From Desulfoarculaceae bacterium (lineage in GTDB: Bacteria > Desulfobacterota > Desulfobulbia > Desulfobulbales > Desulfocapsaceae): a stretch of DNA of 64,000 bases. The stretch spans positions 1-64,000 of the forward strand of contig JAHYIV010000014.1 in assembly GCA_019429465.1 (NCBI GenBank), given 5' to 3'. Each line of letters starts with the position of its first letter. The stretch's first letter is position 1. This document shows positions 67 to 64,000 of this stretch, piece after piece. Position numbers and translations under genes: made by a program. The notes under the pieces were generated by a model. That model saw only the letters and a program-made list of their open reading frames with translations. It did not search any database and was not told the DNA's origin.

Positions 67-229
67 CTTGCCCTCCTTGTTTATGGTTAGTTCGTCAAAA
101 CTATTATTACCATAAAAAGGGAGGGCAATTTTTACTATTTCATGCCCAGGGTCTCTCTTTTTCTACGTTACCAAACCTTTAACGTAAGGGTAACAGGATA
201 GTTTTTTTTATTGACAAGAACTGCCATAT

Positions 230-305
230 CAGTGCCTTACAGATTGTTTTCTTGCAAAAAAACAAGAAAACAATCTGTAAGGCACTGATCCCGTTCATCG
301 GGGTT
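230..305 (+). repeat. Dispersed palindromic element, family I, copy 1
   Basis: A perfect inverted repeat with 25-bp arms spans 230-287 (starts CAGTGCCTTACAG, ends CTGTAAGGCACTG) around a short A-rich loop. It is followed by the family tail TCCCGTTCATCGGGGTT. The same palindrome plus tail recurs at 22897, 30665 (inverted), 32426 (inverted), 43839 and 63361. This copy lies just upstream of the rhomboid gene and could act as a hairpin in its leader, but that is inference. Confidence 0.85.
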
Positions 306-13197: not shown

Positions 13198-13524
13198 GGC
13201 ATAAGGTGCCGTAAGCTCGGCAGGCAAGAAAAAAACTTGCTTGGCTTTACGGATTCTTGTTGTTATCTGCCGTTGTTATCTGCCAGGCGCCACTCCCAAA
13301 AACAGCCGGACAAGATTGGCTGTTTTTGGGAAGCGGCATAAGGTGCCGTAAGCTAAGCAAGTAAGAAAAAGACCTTACTTGGTTTTACGGAGTCTTGTTG
13401 TTATCTGCCAGGCGCCACTCCCAAGAAACAGCCGGAAAAGATTGGCTGTTTTTGGGAAGCGGCATAAGGTGCCGTAAGCTAAGCAAGTAAGAAAAAGACC
13501 TTACTTGCTTAGCAACGGCACCTA
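13198..13524. repeat. Tandem array of a palindrome-rich unit of about 126 bp
   Basis: The marker GGCATAAGGTGCCGTAAGCT begins at 13198, 13335 and 13461. The last two are exactly 126 bp apart; the first interval is 137 bp because of an extra duplication of TGTTATCTGCC. Each full unit holds a hairpin CCCAAAAACAGCC/GGCTGTTTTTGGG and an arm CTAAGCAAGTAAG. In the final unit that arm pairs perfectly with CTTACTTGCTTAG (13477-13512) and extends to GGTGCC/GGCACC, overlapping the stop codon of the CBS gene. The array fills the space between the convergent cbiC and CBS genes and could serve as a terminator for both. Confidence 0.85.
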
Positions 13525-16744: not shown

Positions 16745-16803
16745 GAGGGAGGCACCTGCTGGGGTGTTAAACCATAATTGGTTAACCGATATGCTTGCCG
16801 ACT

Positions 16804-16961
16804 TAGGAGCCGTTACGAAATAACATGGCCATTTATATCTATTTCGTTACGCAGGCCAGGGATGGCCCAGTGTCGCGATCGCCATGGACGGCGTAGGAGC
16901 GACCGGTTGCTTATGCCGCTCCGGGCACTTAGATGGCCATGTTATTTTTTTACAGCGGCTT
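16804..16961 (+). repeat. Family II dispersed element (MITE-like), copy A
   Basis: This element of about 157 bp begins TTAGGAGCCGTTACGAAATA and ends with ATGTTATTTTTTTACAGCGGC. Its ends form imperfect terminal inverted repeats (GCCGTTACGAAATAACATGG against GCCGCTGTAAAAAAATAACA). It has no coding capacity. Near-identical copies lie at 54817 and, interrupted, at 32387. It sits upstream of the Roadblock/nnr run. Confidence 0.85.
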
Positions 16962-17045
16962 ACTTGCCTGCCGAGTCTTCTTTTGTTAGTCTATATGGCC
17001 TGAATTCCAGTGTCAAGACTGAACCAGGCAGGCAGCAACGCAACA

Positions 17046-22896: not shown

Positions 22897-22975
22897 CAGT
22901 GCCTTTCAGATTATTTACTTGTTTTTTTGCCGGAAAACAATCTGCGCAAGACACTTATGCCGTTCATCGGGGTTA
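22897..22975 (+). repeat. Dispersed palindromic element, family I, copy 2
   Basis: This copy is more diverged. CAGTGCCTTTCAGATTATTT pairs imperfectly with AACAATCTGCGCAAGACACT, then comes the tail GCCGTTCATCGGGGTTA ending at TA. It lies in the 250-base gap between dsrN and the sugar dehydrogenase pseudogene. The gap also holds a hairpin GCGGTTC/GAACCGC at 23031-23049. Confidence 0.8.
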
Positions 22976-28190: not shown

Positions 28191-30758
28191 TCAATATAAT
28201 TTGCTCTTGATGGGGAAAACGACTTCCTGGCTTGGAAAAATGATCGCTCCCTGTTCGGCTGTAATCAGCATCTTGATCCCAAGATCCCGGCAGCGTTGCC
28301 GCACCTCGAGACTGGGAAAATGGTTGGGGCGAAAACGACCAGCCGAGACCACGATGATCTCCGGATTTACGGCCTTCAGGAAGGGCTCTGAGTTAGACGT
28401 TGACGAACCATGATGCGGTGAGAGCAGGAAGGTTGATTGTAAGGGGGACTCATTGGAGATCAGTTGCGATTCCATAGTACGGCTGATGTCGCCGGTAAAG
28501 AGGCAGGAGAGCTTCTCGTGTTCAAAGCGGAGGACAAGGCTGCGGTCGTTGGAACTGGCCGCTGCTGATTCCTCTGGATTTTGCAGATTGATAATCTCTG
28601 CGCCCCCACTGTTGATCAAAACTTCCCCCTGTTGCGGTATCTTGATCTCAATCTGCAGATTGTCAGCCAGATTCAACAGCTCTCTGAATTCATGCCCGTC
28701 CCCGTTGAATTCGTTGACCCAGATGGTTTTCGGTCGGAAGCGCTGCAGCAGAAAGGGAATGCCGTTGTAATGATCCGCGTCGCCGTGGGTGATAATAATG
28801 GTATCCAGCTTTTTTATCCCTCTCTGCCAGAGAAAAGGGGCGATGATGTCTTCGCCTACGTTGAAGCGGGGAGACATAGAACTGCCGCCGCCATCAATAA
28901 GAACCCGTTTCCCTGAAGGGAGCTGGAGGAAGGTGGAGCTGCCCTGACCGACATCAAGAAAGGTGAGTACGCTGGTGTTGATCCGTCTTTTCAGCAGTTC
29001 GGCTGGCGGAAAGATAAAGAGGAAAATGATCACGGCAGAGGCTGCCGTCCCCAGAATACCGACACTTCTCCTGTTGGGGTTTCTATTGAGCGGATTTCCC
29101 GCAATGGTCATGAGTATAGCGGCATAAAAGAGGACGATGAGGGTTGGTGACGGTGTCGGCAGCCAGAGAGTGGAAAAGGGGAGAGTGCCGAAGAAGCTGG
29201 TGAATTTCAGTGAAAGCTGCAGTCCGGTACCGCCCAGGTCCAGGAGCAGGGCGGCGGCTGAGGGCATGATAAAGATGAGCGGACAGGCGATAAAGCCCAG
29301 GGTCAGGCTCCAGAAACAGATCAGGGGCTCCACGACCAGATTGGCCAGGGGCCCCACCAGCGAGATTCGATTGAAATAATAGAGAACAAGAGGGGCAGTT
29401 CCAATGGTGGCGGCCAGAGAGACGGTTATGGCCGCCAGGATGAAATGAAAAAGCCGGCGGCTGACCCTCTTGACCGGCGCCTCGTCCTTTGCAGTGGTGT
29501 TGGCCAGGCGGACAAGACCTCCGGCGACCAGTGCGATCGAGGCGACTGCGGTAAAAGAGAGTTGAAAAGAGGCCGTGAAAAGACTGTTCGGATCCCAGAT
29601 GAGGATGAGCAGGGCGGCAATGGCGAGGGGGACCAGCAGGGATCTCATTTTATCGGCGCAGAGGGCGGCCATGAACACGGCTACCATGATCAGGGCCCGG
29701 ACTACCGGGGTATTGGCCCCGGCCAGCAGGGCATAGATGGTCAGCGGTAACAGGCAGAACAGGCCGGCGATTTTCTTGACCGGATAATGGAGGATCAGGT
29801 ATTCGGACCTGCGCAGCAGCCAGTAAACGGAGAAGAACAGAAAGGTGGCCAGGATGGAGAGGTGAGCCCCGGAGATGGAGAGGATATGCATGACGCCTGA
29901 CCCCTTGAATGTTTCCAGGATCTCCTGGCTGATGCCGGAAGAGTCGCCGATCAGCAGGGCCTTGTAGACACTGCTGATCTCCGGGTCCACGGTCTGTTCA
30001 ATAAAGGAACTGATCCGGGTGCGGAGCCTCTCCGGCAGGTAGCGTGCCTGATGCAGAAAAGTGGTATCAGGCTCCAGCTGGTAGATGTGCAGAGGGGATC
30101 TGATCCAGCCCGTTATCCAGATATCTTGTCTGGCCAGAAAGACAGGGTAGTCAAAACCCCCTGGATTGCCAAAGGTCCGCGGCCGGTCAAGTTTGGCGCG
30201 GATGACGAGCTGGTCGCCCGGCTGCAAATCTTTTGACAAGGGGGCCTTGAGCTTCAGCTGCGCCAGGCCCTCTGCGACGAAGAATCCGGCGTTTTCTTTC
30301 AGGCGCAGGGAGTGGAGGTGAACAACAAGGGTGCTGTTCTCTCCGTTGAACTTCGGCATCTGGTCCAGGGTGCAGTAGAGGATGGCCTCCTGCTCCTGCT
30401 GAACCTGATGAAAGATATGGCTGGGAGATGGCGGCTCCCTGGCGGCAAGGGTGCCATGGGCAAAACCGAGGCTGGTGATAAAGGGCAGGAGCAGAAAGAG
30501 CGTGGCCCGGGGCTGTCTGGTCAGGTAAGTGTACAGGGCACAGCTACCGGTCAACAGGGGCAGAAGCAGAACATGGCCCTGAGTGAAGGTGAACGCCAGG
30601 GAGCTGCTGATGCCAAGGATGAAAAAAAAGGTGACAAACAGCAGGAGGTGGGTGGAGAGAAAACTAACCCCGATAAACGGAATAAGTGTCTTTCGCGGAT
30701 TATTTTCTGGCAAAAAAAACAAGAAAATAATCCGTAAGGCACTAAAGAACCTGCTCAC
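28191..30758 (-). CDS. comEC: DNA internalization competence protein ComEC/Rec2
   Basis: This is an 855-residue polytopic membrane protein: an N-terminal hydrophobic cluster, a DUF4131/OB-like domain (about 100-220), the Competence domain with LLIGDSSGI and LSISGAHLSIL, and a C-terminal metallo-beta-lactamase-like domain with DVGQGSSTFLQ, IDGGGSS and ITHGDADHYNG. It forms the channel for single-stranded DNA entry. Initiation is most likely at GTG 30758, overlapping waaA by 17 bases. There is no closer downstream ATG or GTG in the first 60 codons. The first 31 codons are therefore supplied by a family I palindromic element (30665-30744), an unusual origin for a protein N-terminus. Confidence 0.9.
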   Translation of the reverse strand: MSRFFSALRIIFLFFLPENNPRKTLIPFIGVSFLSTHLLLFVTFFFILGISSSLAFTFTQGHVLLLPLLTGSCALYTYLTRQPRATLFLLLPFITSLGFAHGTLAAREPPSPSHIFHQVQQEQEAILYCTLDQMPKFNGENSTLVVHLHSLRLKENAGFFVAEGLAQLKLKAPLSKDLQPGDQLVIRAKLDRPRTFGNPGGFDYPVFLARQDIWITGWIRSPLHIYQLEPDTTFLHQARYLPERLRTRISSFIEQTVDPEISSVYKALLIGDSSGISQEILETFKGSGVMHILSISGAHLSILATFLFFSVYWLLRRSEYLILHYPVKKIAGLFCLLPLTIYALLAGANTPVVRALIMVAVFMAALCADKMRSLLVPLAIAALLILIWDPNSLFTASFQLSFTAVASIALVAGGLVRLANTTAKDEAPVKRVSRRLFHFILAAITVSLAATIGTAPLVLYYFNRISLVGPLANLVVEPLICFWSLTLGFIACPLIFIMPSAAALLLDLGGTGLQLSLKFTSFFGTLPFSTLWLPTPSPTLIVLFYAAILMTIAGNPLNRNPNRRSVGILGTAASAVIIFLFIFPPAELLKRRINTSVLTFLDVGQGSSTFLQLPSGKRVLIDGGGSSMSPRFNVGEDIIAPFLWQRGIKKLDTIIITHGDADHYNGIPFLLQRFRPKTIWVNEFNGDGHEFRELLNLADNLQIEIKIPQQGEVLINSGGAEIINLQNPEESAAASSNDRSLVLRFEHEKLSCLFTGDISRTMESQLISNESPLQSTFLLSPHHGSSTSNSEPFLKAVNPEIIVVSAGRFRPNHFPSLEVRQRCRDLGIKMLITAEQGAIIFPSQEVVFPIKSKLY
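30665..30744 (-). repeat. Dispersed palindromic element, family I, copy 3 (within the waaA/comEC junction)
   Basis: Inverted relative to copy 1: TAACCCCGATAAACGGAATA at the left, then the palindrome CGGATTATTTTCT/AGAAAATAATCCG, ending GGCACTA. TA dinucleotides border both ends. It forms the waaA stop codon and codes for the N-terminal residues of ComEC, reading through the palindrome without a stop. Confidence 0.88.
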
Positions 30759-32386: not shown

Positions 32387-32569
32387 TTAGGAGCCGTTAC
32401 GAAATAACATGGCTATTTATATCTAGCCCCGATGAACGGGATAAGTGCCTTTCGCAGATTATTTTCTTGCAAAGAAACAAGAAAATAATCTGTAAGGCAC
32501 TATTTCGTTACGGCTCCTTGTGCCGCTCCTGGCACTGAGATGGCCATGTTGTTTTTTTTACAGCGGCTT
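32387..32569 (+). repeat. Family II dispersed element, copy C, interrupted by a family I element
   Basis: The left end TTAGGAGCCGTTACGAAATA and right end ATGGCCATGTTG...CAGCGGC match copies A and B. Between them a family I element (32426-32500) has inserted after ATATCTA. About 55 internal bases present in the other copies (from CAGGCCAGGG onward) are missing. It lies in the intergenic space before the Na/Pi cotransporter. Confidence 0.88.
32426..32500 (-). repeat. Dispersed palindromic element, family I, copy 4 (nested insertion)
   Basis: GCCCCGATGAACGGGATAAG, then the palindrome CAGATTATTTTCTTG/CAAGAAAATAATCTG, ending GGCAC, flanked by TA on each side. The uninterrupted family II copies read ATATCTATTTCG at this point with a single TA, so the insertion duplicated TA. 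Confidence 0.9.
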
Positions 32570-43838: not shown

Positions 43839-43917
43839 GGTGCCTTACAGATTGTTTTCTTGTTTTTTTGCAAGAAAATAATCTGCGAAAGGTACTTTTC
43901 CCGTTTACCGGGGTTAG
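43839..43917 (+). repeat. Dispersed palindromic element, family I, copy 5
   Basis: GGTGCCTTACAGATTGTTTT pairs with the later AAGAAAATAATCTGCGAAAG segment and is followed by the tail TTCCCGTTTACCGGGGTTA. It lies just upstream of the DksA/TraR-like gene. Confidence 0.85.
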
Positions 43918-54816: not shown

Positions 54817-54973
54817 TTAGGAGCCGTTATGAAATAACATGGCCATTTATATCTATTTCCTTACGCAGGCCAGGGACGTCCCAGTGTCGCGAGCGCCATG
54901 GACGGCGTAGGAGCGACCGGCTCATTATGCCGCTCCGAGCACAAGATAGCCATGTTATTTTATTACAGCGGCT
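54817..54973 (+). repeat. Family II dispersed element (MITE-like), copy B
   Basis: This is a full-length copy of about 157 bp, nearly identical to copy A at 16804. It has the same ends (TTAGGAGCCGTTATGAAATA and TTACAGCGGC), the same imperfect terminal inverted repeats and the intact ATATCTATTTCC junction that is interrupted in copy C. It is non-coding, between DUF2156 and rsgA. Confidence 0.87.
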
Positions 54974-55047
54974 TGTTGGCAATGATGAAGGCAAAAGTGT
55001 AAATATGACCTTTTCTTGTCCACTCCGACGGTACCTATTGTGAGAGA

Positions 55048-56581: not shown

Positions 56582-57928
56582 ATGAAAAATTCCCATTTTA
56601 GCAGGGCGGGTTTTATCCTGGCGGCCTCCGGCAGTGCCGTGGGCTTGGGCAACATCTGGAAGTTTCCCTATATGGCTGGTGAATATGGCGGCGGTGCCTT
56701 TGTCCTTGTCTATCTTCTTACCATTGTCTGTGTCGGTTTTTCTCTGCTTGTGGCAGAGATTCTGATCGGATATTCAGGCGAAAAGGATGCGGTCTCCAGC
56801 TTTGAAGAGTTGGCGCCTAAAAAGGAAATCGGCTGGAAATATGCAGGATTTATGGGGGCGACCGGGCTTTTGATCATGACCTTCTATTCAGTTGTCATCG
56901 GCTGGATACTCTATTATGTGATCCTGTCCGTCATCTTTCTTCCGACAACAATGGAGGCCGCGCAACAGGGCTTTGGCGATCTGGTAGGCAATCAGGCCTG
57001 GACCCAGATCGTGTTTCACCTGATTGCCACAGTCCTGATCATGTCCATACTTCTCAAAGGCATTAAGGGTGGTATTGAAAAAACCAATGAAATCTTAATG
57101 CCGATACTGATGCTGATTATCCTGGGTTTACTGCTCTACGCCATGACCCTGGATGGATTCAAGGAGTCGCTTCGTTTCTTCTTTGTCTTTGAATTTTCAA
57201 AACTCAGTTCTGAAGCGATTACTCAAGCAGTAGGGCATTCCTTCTTTACCCTGTCAATCGGTATGGCCGCGATTTTAACCTATGCAGCGTCACTGCCCAG
57301 GCGTACCAATATCGTCAAAGCGGCCTTCTGGGTCGTGTTCCTTGATACTTCCATTGCCCTTATGGCTGGACTGATGATGTACGCATTTATCTTTGAATTC
57401 AATCAAGATCCGGCGACAGGTCCGGGGCTGGTCTTTATAAGTCTGCCGGTGGTCTTTTCTCAGATAGGCACACTGGGAACCATCTTTGCCGTATTGTTCT
57501 TTCTGGCTCTGGCCTTTGCCGGGCTTACCTCGGCGATATCAATAGTTGAGCCAACGATTGAATATACCATGAACAGACTTGAGTGGAGTAGATTGAAGTC
57601 AACCCTGATTGCCAGCGCCATCTTTTTCATCGTTGGTGTTTTTACCCTTCTCTCCTATACCGCTGAGTACGGGGCAATCTTTACTTTTGGCGGCCTGCCG
57701 TTGTTTGACCTCCTTGATAAACTGACAACCAATGTCTTATTGCCACTCGGTGGCTTGACTGTTGCGATATTTGTCGGCTTTGTGGTCCGCAAAGAAAGAG
57801 TCTATGCCTCGATGAGTGAGTTCGTCAGCAAAGGATTTTTTGAAGCCTGGTATTTTAATATACGATTCATCGCCATCCCGGCCCTTGTCTTTACCCTGTT
57901 GAATCTTGTCGGAATTATAAAGATTTAA
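56582..57928 (+). CDS. Neurotransmitter:sodium symporter (SNF) family transporter
   Basis: This is a 448-residue protein with about 11-12 membrane helices. The N-terminus has the SNF signature GSAVGLGNIWKFPY, with the unwound first helix that binds Na+ and substrate. Bacterial members such as LeuT and MhsT carry amino acids, so an amino-acid substrate is likely, though not specified here. ATG 56582 follows AAGGGA. A near-identical paralogue starts at 63701, 7 kb downstream. The preceding small regulator-like gene overlaps its upstream region. Confidence 0.93.
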   Translation: MKNSHFSRAGFILAASGSAVGLGNIWKFPYMAGEYGGGAFVLVYLLTIVCVGFSLLVAEILIGYSGEKDAVSSFEELAPKKEIGWKYAGFMGATGLLIMTFYSVVIGWILYYVILSVIFLPTTMEAAQQGFGDLVGNQAWTQIVFHLIATVLIMSILLKGIKGGIEKTNEILMPILMLIILGLLLYAMTLDGFKESLRFFFVFEFSKLSSEAITQAVGHSFFTLSIGMAAILTYAASLPRRTNIVKAAFWVVFLDTSIALMAGLMMYAFIFEFNQDPATGPGLVFISLPVVFSQIGTLGTIFAVLFFLALAFAGLTSAISIVEPTIEYTMNRLEWSRLKSTLIASAIFFIVGVFTLLSYTAEYGAIFTFGGLPLFDLLDKLTTNVLLPLGGLTVAIFVGFVVRKERVYASMSEFVSKGFFEAWYFNIRFIAIPALVFTLLNLVGIIKI

Positions 57929-63211: not shown

Positions 63212-63700
63212 TCCAGGTCTCCGGGGTTTTGAATTGTGTATGCAATCACAGCCTTGCCAGATTCAACTTGAGAAGCGCAACTCCCTGTGGGGAGGCAGTA
63301 TAGCGCATCGTCTCATCAAAGAATACCTCAAATGAGATTTTGAATCAGTAATATCTGGTTAGTTCCTTACAGCTTATTTTCTCGGAGTCTGCGCTTACCT
63401 GTTTTTTTACAAGAAAATAAGCTGCGAAAGGCACTTATCCCGTTCATTGGGGTTAGATATCTGTATCCGCTGTTTTAAAAAAAGTGATGAACCAGCTCCT
63501 CGCCTCGTCAAGACGGGGCCGATGGTGAATTTTTATTTTTTAGTTCTGATTACGGACAACCTGCTTTCTTTAACCTTGAAATCTGGTATCGTTGCTCAAT
63601 TAAGAGATCGGCGTAAATGTCTATTCATTTTTGATTTTCGGAAAGGTACTGAATGACCAATAATTACCAGAATAAGTAGACCCAATATCAAGAGATATCA
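63212..63700. other. Intergenic region containing a family I repeat
   Basis: About 490 bases between the divergent adaptor gene and the second SNF gene. The main content is the family I element at 63361-63457. The flanking AT-rich DNA shows no gene with a credible start; a frame at 63447 begins inside the repeat and has no ribosome site. Confidence 0.5.
63361..63457 (+). repeat. Dispersed palindromic element, family I, copy 6 (with internal expansion)
   Basis: AGTTCCTTACAGCTTATTTT pairs with AAGAAAATAAGCTGCGAAAG, followed by the tail TCCCGTTCATTGGGGTTA. The loop carries about 18 extra bases (around CGGAGTCTGCGCTTACC) compared with the other copies. The base changes in the two arms match each other (AGCTTATT/AATAAGCT against AGATTGTT/AACAATCT in copy 1), so pairing is conserved. 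TA borders both ends. Confidence 0.85.
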
Positions 63701-64000
63701 ATGAAAAATATTATAAATTCACACTTTACCAGAATAGGTTTTATCATGGCGGCCTCCGGCAGTGCCGTCGGCCTCGGCAACATCTGGAAGTTTCCCTATA
63801 TGGCCGGTGAATATGGCGGCGGCGCCTTTGTCCTCGTCTATCTTCTGACCATAGTCTGTGTCGGTTTCTCTCTGCTTGTGGCAGAGATTCTGATCGGATA
63901 TTCAGGTGAAAAAGATGCGGTCTCCTGTTTTGAAGAATTGGCCCCTAAAAAGAACGTCGGCTGGAAATATGCCGGATTTATGGGCGCGACCGGGCTGTTG
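63701..64000 (+). CDS. Second neurotransmitter:sodium symporter (SNF) family transporter (partial)
   Basis: The first 100 codons are visible before the window ends. The sequence is almost identical to the SNF transporter at 56582 from GSAVGLGNIWKFPY onward, with a slightly different N-terminus (MKNIINSHFTRIGFIMAA). DNA identity is high, with mainly third-position changes, indicating a fairly recent duplication. AGAGA lies shortly before ATG 63701. The substrate is probably an amino acid, as for its paralogue. Confidence 0.9.
   Translation, partial: MKNIINSHFTRIGFIMAASGSAVGLGNIWKFPYMAGEYGGGAFVLVYLLTIVCVGFSLLVAEILIGYSGEKDAVSCFEELAPKKNVGWKYAGFMGATGLL

Follow-up and report, generated by a model that had tools for sequence, protein, structure and literature searches.

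Two families of hairpin elements, one nested in the other, share a building plan and TTA(G) borders in a Desulfocapsaceae genome

What kind of element settles inside another repeat of the same genome, beside which word does it land, and what moves it? The question is raised by positions 32387-32569 of a 64,000-nucleotide stretch of DNA (hereafter the window) on contig C27 of a sulfur-cycling bacterium of the Desulfocapsaceae (72 contigs, 2.84 Mb, 94.8% complete), where direct reading reveals a family II element with a 75-bp family I element inside it. The composite, called copy C, has a kdotransferase-like ORF on one side and a Na/Pi-cotransporter ORF on the other; it reads ...TTTATATCTA up to 32425, continues with the 75 bp GCCCCGATG...GGCAC (32426-32500) and resumes with TATTTCGTTACGG, whereas family II copies A (from 16803) and B (from 54817) read TTTATATCTATTTC at the same point. 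In junction letters, C has ATATCTA, 75 bp and TATTTCG against ATATCTATTTC in A and B. The parts of the composite and its two uninterrupted comparators are:

32387-32569, + strand: composite copy C, short-form family II interrupted by family I
32387-32425, + strand: left part of the short family II element, TTAGGAGCCGTTACG...ATATCTA
32426-32500, - strand: inserted family I element, 75 bp between both TA
32427-32499, - strand: family I core, TGCC...CGGGG
32428-32440, + strand: small hairpin of family I, CCCGATGAACGGG
32441-32445, + strand: ATAAG linker between the two hairpins, also found in family II
32444-32501, + strand: large hairpin of family I, AGTGCC...GGCACT
32501-32569, + strand: right part of the short family II element, TATTTCGTTACGGCTCC...CAGCGGCTT
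16803-16962, + strand: copy A, long-form family II, site uninterrupted
54817-54974, + strand: copy B, long-form family II, site uninterrupted

An earlier sequence-only reading had described this nesting, taken A and B as preserved empty sites, concluded that family I was mobile after family II had spread, and ascribed the insertion to TA duplication by an IS630/Tc1-mariner-type enzyme acting in trans. The letters of C set against those of A and B confirm the nesting, and the later mobility of family I is supported, as is the existence of empty sites, described below. A and B are indeed uninterrupted but are not direct counterparts of C, since both are long forms with ~54 bp (CAGGCC...GACCG) missing from C; the element without an insert that corresponds to C is the short form, as in L079, L242 and L243:1867-1972. 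The observation is thus sound and the mobility claim holds, while the proposed TA/IS630 mechanism does not, for reasons given with the border evidence.

Both families are abundant: a first-look search of the bacterium's own genome matched at least 40 copies of each (40 of 161 candidates scored for family I and 40 of 159 for family II), which places the match far from chance. Forty-nine family II copies are matched at both ends and comprise 34 long copies, all in the own genome and with the extra block detected in 33 at the mismatches allowed, 12 short copies (six in the own genome, six elsewhere), and three that hold family I, namely copy C, a sister on contig C17 and L243:11875. At up to three mismatches the short-form junction occurs in all 17 genomes of the genus, and the long-form junction gives 48 matches in the own genome and 0 to 6 in each of its 16 relatives; the uninterrupted short form is present in the own genome and also, as L079, in another family. 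Copy C goes back to this short form, and A and B represent a lengthened derivative. In DNA folding, the left half of the short form makes a long hairpin and the predicted fold changes when the block is added, with copy A scoring z -4.3 against shuffles. A third repeat of ~55 bp, CGCAGGCCAGGGACGGCCC...GGAGCGACCG, resembles the long family II block and is found alone or in tandem at L241:10963-11018, L243:9067-9181 and L244:13356-13410.

The C17 sister (C17:45742-45924, own genome) matches the 187-base composite at 92% over positions 4-187; like copy C it carries the CTAGCCCC variant, is of the short form and has TTGG as its right border, and its flanks are unrelated. The same interrupted element between different flanks makes it probable that a single insertion event was followed by copying of the whole, so that copy C would be a short family II element that received family I and was afterwards probably copied together with it. 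Two independent insertions at one hot spot would also yield this pair, given that site-specific insertion could repeat one event and that a second nesting of family I in family II is known at a different site (L243:11872-12113, within a long family II copy and with the relative orientation reversed); the three shared features make this improbable, as does a 31-base junction pattern that, across the 17 genus genomes, matches without mismatch only at copy C and the C17 copy and in none of the 16 relatives. With two to three mismatches the pattern gives ten more matches, and the eight read by eye are family I copies or fragments outside family II. An interruption shared by descent with no empty sites had been named as grounds for rejecting that earlier reading: the second interrupted copy, by its shared variants probably of common descent, falls on that side, yet empty sites exist. 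In addition, L062 may hold family I inside a relative of family II, and family I directly adjoins 4 of the 49 family II copies, a placement that would follow from new copies landing at the TTA(G) feet of older ones.

Apart from the copy inside C, family I occurs in the window at five places, one of them preceded by a stretch resembling an insertion sequence (IS) end:

165-232, + strand: IS110-family right-end-like stretch, ...GCCATATCAG, 88.5% over 61 bases
233-303, + strand: family I copy abutting the IS110-family right end
22900-22972, + strand: family I copy
30668-30741, - strand: family I copy, site empty in relatives
43841-43913, + strand: family I copy
63365-63452, + strand: family I copy with a longer loop

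The kdotransferase-like ORF ends in a TAG that is part of the TTAG foot of the copy at 30668-30741. Other repeats of the window include three tandem units between ORFs at 13198-13510, spaced by 137 and 126 bases, and two 291-bp direct repeats, 89% identical, at 56582-56872 and 63710-64000, the second of which reaches the window end. Records that carry an exact 25-base family I core (64 stretches) are mostly titled Desulfocapsa, Desulfocapsaceae or Desulfobulbaceae, with a few others such as Syntrophus and Rhodocyclaceae. Two genomes from other families of the order, G041 and G048 (loci L066 and L079), carry family I, at 96% identity across 80 bases, and short family II, respectively, which may reflect transfer.

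Borders were compared in 248 sequences (1.43 Mb), a set enriched for family I by selection, in which an HMM gave 169 matches, 149 of them full length and 131 with distinct flanks. Read in the TGCC...CGGGG orientation, 113 of these 131 copies have TTAG as their left tetranucleotide, 81 have it as their right one and 73 have it on both sides; the 58 copies departing from TTAG anywhere carry equal words on both sides in just two instances. Removal of seven copies by a similarity rule (one of them, L093, being a TTAG copy caught by that rule) leaves 124, in which departures from TTAG are confined to the left in 5 and to the right in 40, affect both sides in 7 and are absent in 72 (p = 7.9e-8), and in which TTA stands on the left in 116 and on the right in 88; before the exclusion the one-sided departures number 8 vs. 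40 (p = 3.3e-6). Conservation over all 131 copies is 0.92-0.99 for the left TTAG and 0.85-0.89 for the right TTAG, the latter lying below the adjoining CGGGG (0.97-1.00) yet within the range of the stem positions; TGCC stands at 0.83-0.98 and the other core positions at 0.60-1.00. Since plain duplication of a neutral target would decay equally on both sides, this inequality argues against a TA duplication. Family II borders have TTAG on the left in 48 and TTA on the right in 43 of the 49 copies.

Clear empty sites show that what is gained equals the element plus one TTA(G). At window positions 30668-30741, nine relatives align; by eye, seven of them span the site with the length, 27 bases, that remains after the element and one CTAA are subtracted, and L213, which belongs to these seven, keeps the CTAA. 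Further single-TTAG empty sites are seen in L063 vs. L144 and L115 vs. L142, and the comparison of L120 and L124 with L029 gives CCTAG at the empty site. For family II, L029 set against L120 reads CTTTA/ATAAAG, which points to insertion beside TTA. We also searched the 17 genomes with nineteen joined flanks, taken mostly from copies with unequal borders, and at least eight matched across the junction among the matches listed and loci read: among the matches listed, the empty site of L240:5646 reads TTTTAG in 4 of 13 relatives with three more ending in GTAG, that of L240:17896 (L010:666) reads TTAG in three of five relatives, and the other six cases point to neither side. The side that resembles the target varies, being the left in copy C, where the left word equals the empty-site word, and in L096, and the right in L243:12003 and L240:5646. 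On our reading, both families land beside TTA(G), or (C)TAA on the other strand, and add themselves plus one TTA(G).

Beyond their feet, the two families share a building plan, TAA-hairpin-ATAAG-hairpin-CTAA in the orientation of copy C, which family I realizes as CTAA-CCCCGATGAACGGG-ATAAG-TGCC...GGCA-CTAA and family II, on the reverse strand, as TAA-GCCGC...GCGGC-ATAAG-GAGCC...GGCTC-CTAA. A scan for hairpin-ATAAG-hairpin-CTAA through 462 kb of the own genome (the window plus further stretches) returns nine hits, comprising four family I copies, four family II copies and one other, and none on three mononucleotide shuffles; across all collected loci, an enriched sample, there are 97 hits, divided between the two usual feet (64 and 29) and four others, and related loci, L087 and L081 for example, have altered hairpins with TAA, ATAAG and CTAA kept. 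The large family I stem pairs at 14 of 14 positions in 48 of 79 copies, at 13 in 22, at 12 in eight and at 9 in one, with 21 distinct 5' arms and a 3' arm placed at the best of seven offsets, a procedure that favors pairing. Six stem positions (2-7) vary on both sides with compensating changes; such covariation could also stem from arm-to-arm conversion and is thus no proof of selection. DNA folds score z -9.6 against shuffles for the composite, -9.3 for the family I element of copy C, -6.5 for L079 and -4.6 for window 30664-30745, and an Rfam search of the window returned nothing at gathering score. The units also occur solitary (L238:7846 and L242:2553); if small hairpins standing by themselves marked one end of something longer, a transposase might lie nearby, but inspection by eye of the ORFs at three such loci revealed none.

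A MITE moved by an IS630/Tc1-mariner enzyme that duplicates TA, as the sequence-only reading held, would account for the TA on both sides of copy C and of 92 of the 131 copies, and DDE_3, the IS630-type domain, occurs in 9 of the 17 genus genomes (27 matches; three in the own genome, one of these over the cut-off), with a short family II copy (L253:101-206, contig C23 of the own genome) ~1.6 kb from a weak match. TA at every border had been expected, but 39 copies lack it on at least one side (26 have it on the left only, 7 on the right only, making 33 one-sided, and 6 on neither), and the word that is conserved and repeated is TTA(G), not TA. The unequal border decay stands against this route, as do the ends of family I, which by eye are not inverted repeats, and the 27 DDE_3 loci, read for up to 1.5 kb on each side with some shortened by contig ends, which contain no family I or II match and hence none of the matching ends that had been sought; we consider the IS630 mechanism very improbable. 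Some IS elements duplicate a word of this kind, the IS5-like duplication being YTAR, and a DDE-type or other enzyme might likewise make a true 3- or 4-bp TTA/TTAG duplication that mutated later. The 73 copies with TTAG on both sides and the single copy held by clear empty sites are compatible with this, as is family II, where a TTA duplication is indistinguishable from a TTA target; yet the near absence of identical words among departing family I copies, the strong excess of departures on one side and, again, the lack of inverted repeats at its ends leave such a duplication unlikely.

An IS110/IS1111-family recombinase, which makes no duplication and relies on a short common core and guided targeting, could be a further candidate for moving family I. 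An IS of the IS110 family (PF02371 and PF01548) with right end ...GCCATATCAG lies at the start of C17, and this right end stands exactly at a family I foot in three places, two in the own genome (window 165-232 and L243:1-1666) and one at L104:1-43; moreover, the portions of the literature available to us describe this family as inserting without target duplication, with some members targeting REP sequences (PMC11187229). The same IS end is, however, followed by other DNA in seven distinct places, one of which, L272, begins TACCTTAC with a slight likeness to family I; family I thus has the appearance of a target, not of a relative, and the HMMs find no family I or II match within L243:1-1666. 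We therefore rate IS110-driven movement as quite improbable, and family I is instead apparently among the targets used by this IS. Published passages on REP sequences name them as targets of IS elements (PMC1525189), IS1111 members included (PMC11187229), and the IS110 end at family I feet thus fits a REP-like nature of family I. Copies with TCAG on the left, once taken as proof that the left word is the target, lost that role when the flank in four of the nine proved to resemble junctions with the IS110-family right end.

The reading that we put forward, to which we give even chances, treats families I and II as distinct in sequence but as members of a single class of non-autonomous hairpin elements, REP/PATE-like in character and mobilized in trans by an enzyme. 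Such an enzyme would read the hairpins together with the short conserved foot words and would most likely be an HUH (Y1) transposase that acts on single strands, akin to those of IS200/IS605 or to TnpA_REP; on balance an HUH enzyme appears to fit the anatomy best, by likeness to TnpA_REP, described in the available text as reading a GTAG foot plus hairpin (PMC8266576). Y1_Tnp is present in all 17 genus genomes, with five matches in the own genome. When families I and II were compared by BLAST with 57 transposase loci, two matched, both Y1: L162, with a 22-base match 1.3 kb from the Y1 gene, and L163, with a 16-base match. Both HMMs run over 104 transposase stretches likewise gave two matches, a family I relative in L162 and the short family II copy in L253. 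Among the part of the Y1 matches read, with ~1.5 kb flanks and an assembly ~95% complete, we found no Y1 gene with matching ends and no RAYT/TnpA_REP gene bordered by a family I or II repeat, an absence that, given the short flanks, partial Y1 coverage and ~95% assembly, is weak evidence. Candidates set aside comprise IS200-type Y1 genes, whose ends as read are different hairpins, and, among the own-genome RAYT-type Y1 genes, the two read closely, L248 and L250, which are bordered by GGGGTCAGG-type repeats; L248 gave a weak family II hit (E 0.014) that is absent at E 0.01 in the HMM scan. Clustering of 62 RAYT-like ORFs from 16 genomes, again part of the Y1 matches, produced no cluster spanning all genomes, and the largest (15 ORFs, 10 genomes) does not include the own genome. 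Upstream of one RAYT-like gene, at L179:2110-2247, lies a repeat, GCCTTGAAAAATGGTC..., matched in up to 11 further loci. TnpB gave three weak hits and exceeded the cut-off in 0 of the 17 genomes, and long repeats in the own-genome sample amount to a few pairs of at least 350 bases in L228 and L238-L239, with none elsewhere. Strand bias, with GC skew as proxy, was absent (11/24, and 27/62, p = 0.37), which counts against a replication-coupled single-strand route insofar as the proxy holds; the available account has members of IS200/IS605 using the lagging strand (PMC6006769). The two core sites of an integron attC pair with each other; attC was dropped because the two ends here do not pair in that way.

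It is also important to place these elements among known systems. Correia/NEMIS and other TA-target MITEs are short hairpin elements with TA borders, terminal inverted repeats and TA duplication; the short hairpins and TA borders recur here, and the terminal inverted repeats and TA duplication are theirs only. REP sequences of the GTAG and CGTC superfamilies with TnpA_REP/RAYT, as presented in the sections of the literature consulted, likewise combine high copy number, imperfect hairpins and a conserved foot tetranucleotide, occur as single or paired units and have borders that can supply a TAG stop codon (PMC3733652, PMC8266576, PMC6006769). By contrast, the foot here is TTAG/TTAT, with TTAG in 113 of 131 family I copies, and not GTAG or CGTC, two unlike hairpins are joined in tandem by ATAAG, and no RAYT gene with matching ends was found among the Y1 loci read. 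The PATEs derived from IS200/IS605, according to the part of the source at hand (PMC3119063), are similarly short, with near-terminal palindromes and a presence inside other mobile elements, and have a short target word on one side, as the elements here may. Family I, though not family II, whose ends show weak inversion (22 of 30 positions, judged by eye), further resembles them in its subterminal hairpins and lack of terminal inverted repeats; the likeness ends at an IS200/IS605 element with matching ends, of which none was found among the Y1 loci read, at strand bias, absent by GC skew, and at TnpB, over the cut-off in none of the 17 genomes. The same portion describes SMR-A of Haloquadratum as ~110 bp long, with enzyme unknown and with preferential insertion into palindromes of other mobile elements, all as here, and as free of target duplication, which may hold here too, although SMRs have prominent terminal inverted repeats and family I has none (PMC3119063). 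No earlier description of families I and II was found in the literature searched, which is no proof of absence; the kind is known, and what appears to be new, as far as that literature goes, is the tagging with TTAG, the arrangement of two hairpins in tandem and a landing rule common to two families.

A bolder extension, possible but doubtful, would see here a third REP-like superfamily, with TTAG at its feet and ATAAG between its two tandem hairpins, whose movement across the Desulfobulbales is the work of an HUH-type enzyme yet to be described, one indifferent to hairpin sequence as long as the stems pair and TAA, ATAAG and CTAA are kept. Judging from its covariation, the stem seems to be recognized by the enzyme or the host more by structure than by sequence, and the nested and adjacent copies are a record of the order in which the families spread. 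If the reading of families I and II as one class is true, a single landing rule and a single plan of construction would hold for hairpin elements beyond the two REP superfamilies, as these are delineated in the portion of the literature at hand (PMC3733652), and two unrelated-looking repeat families would point to an enzyme still to be found.
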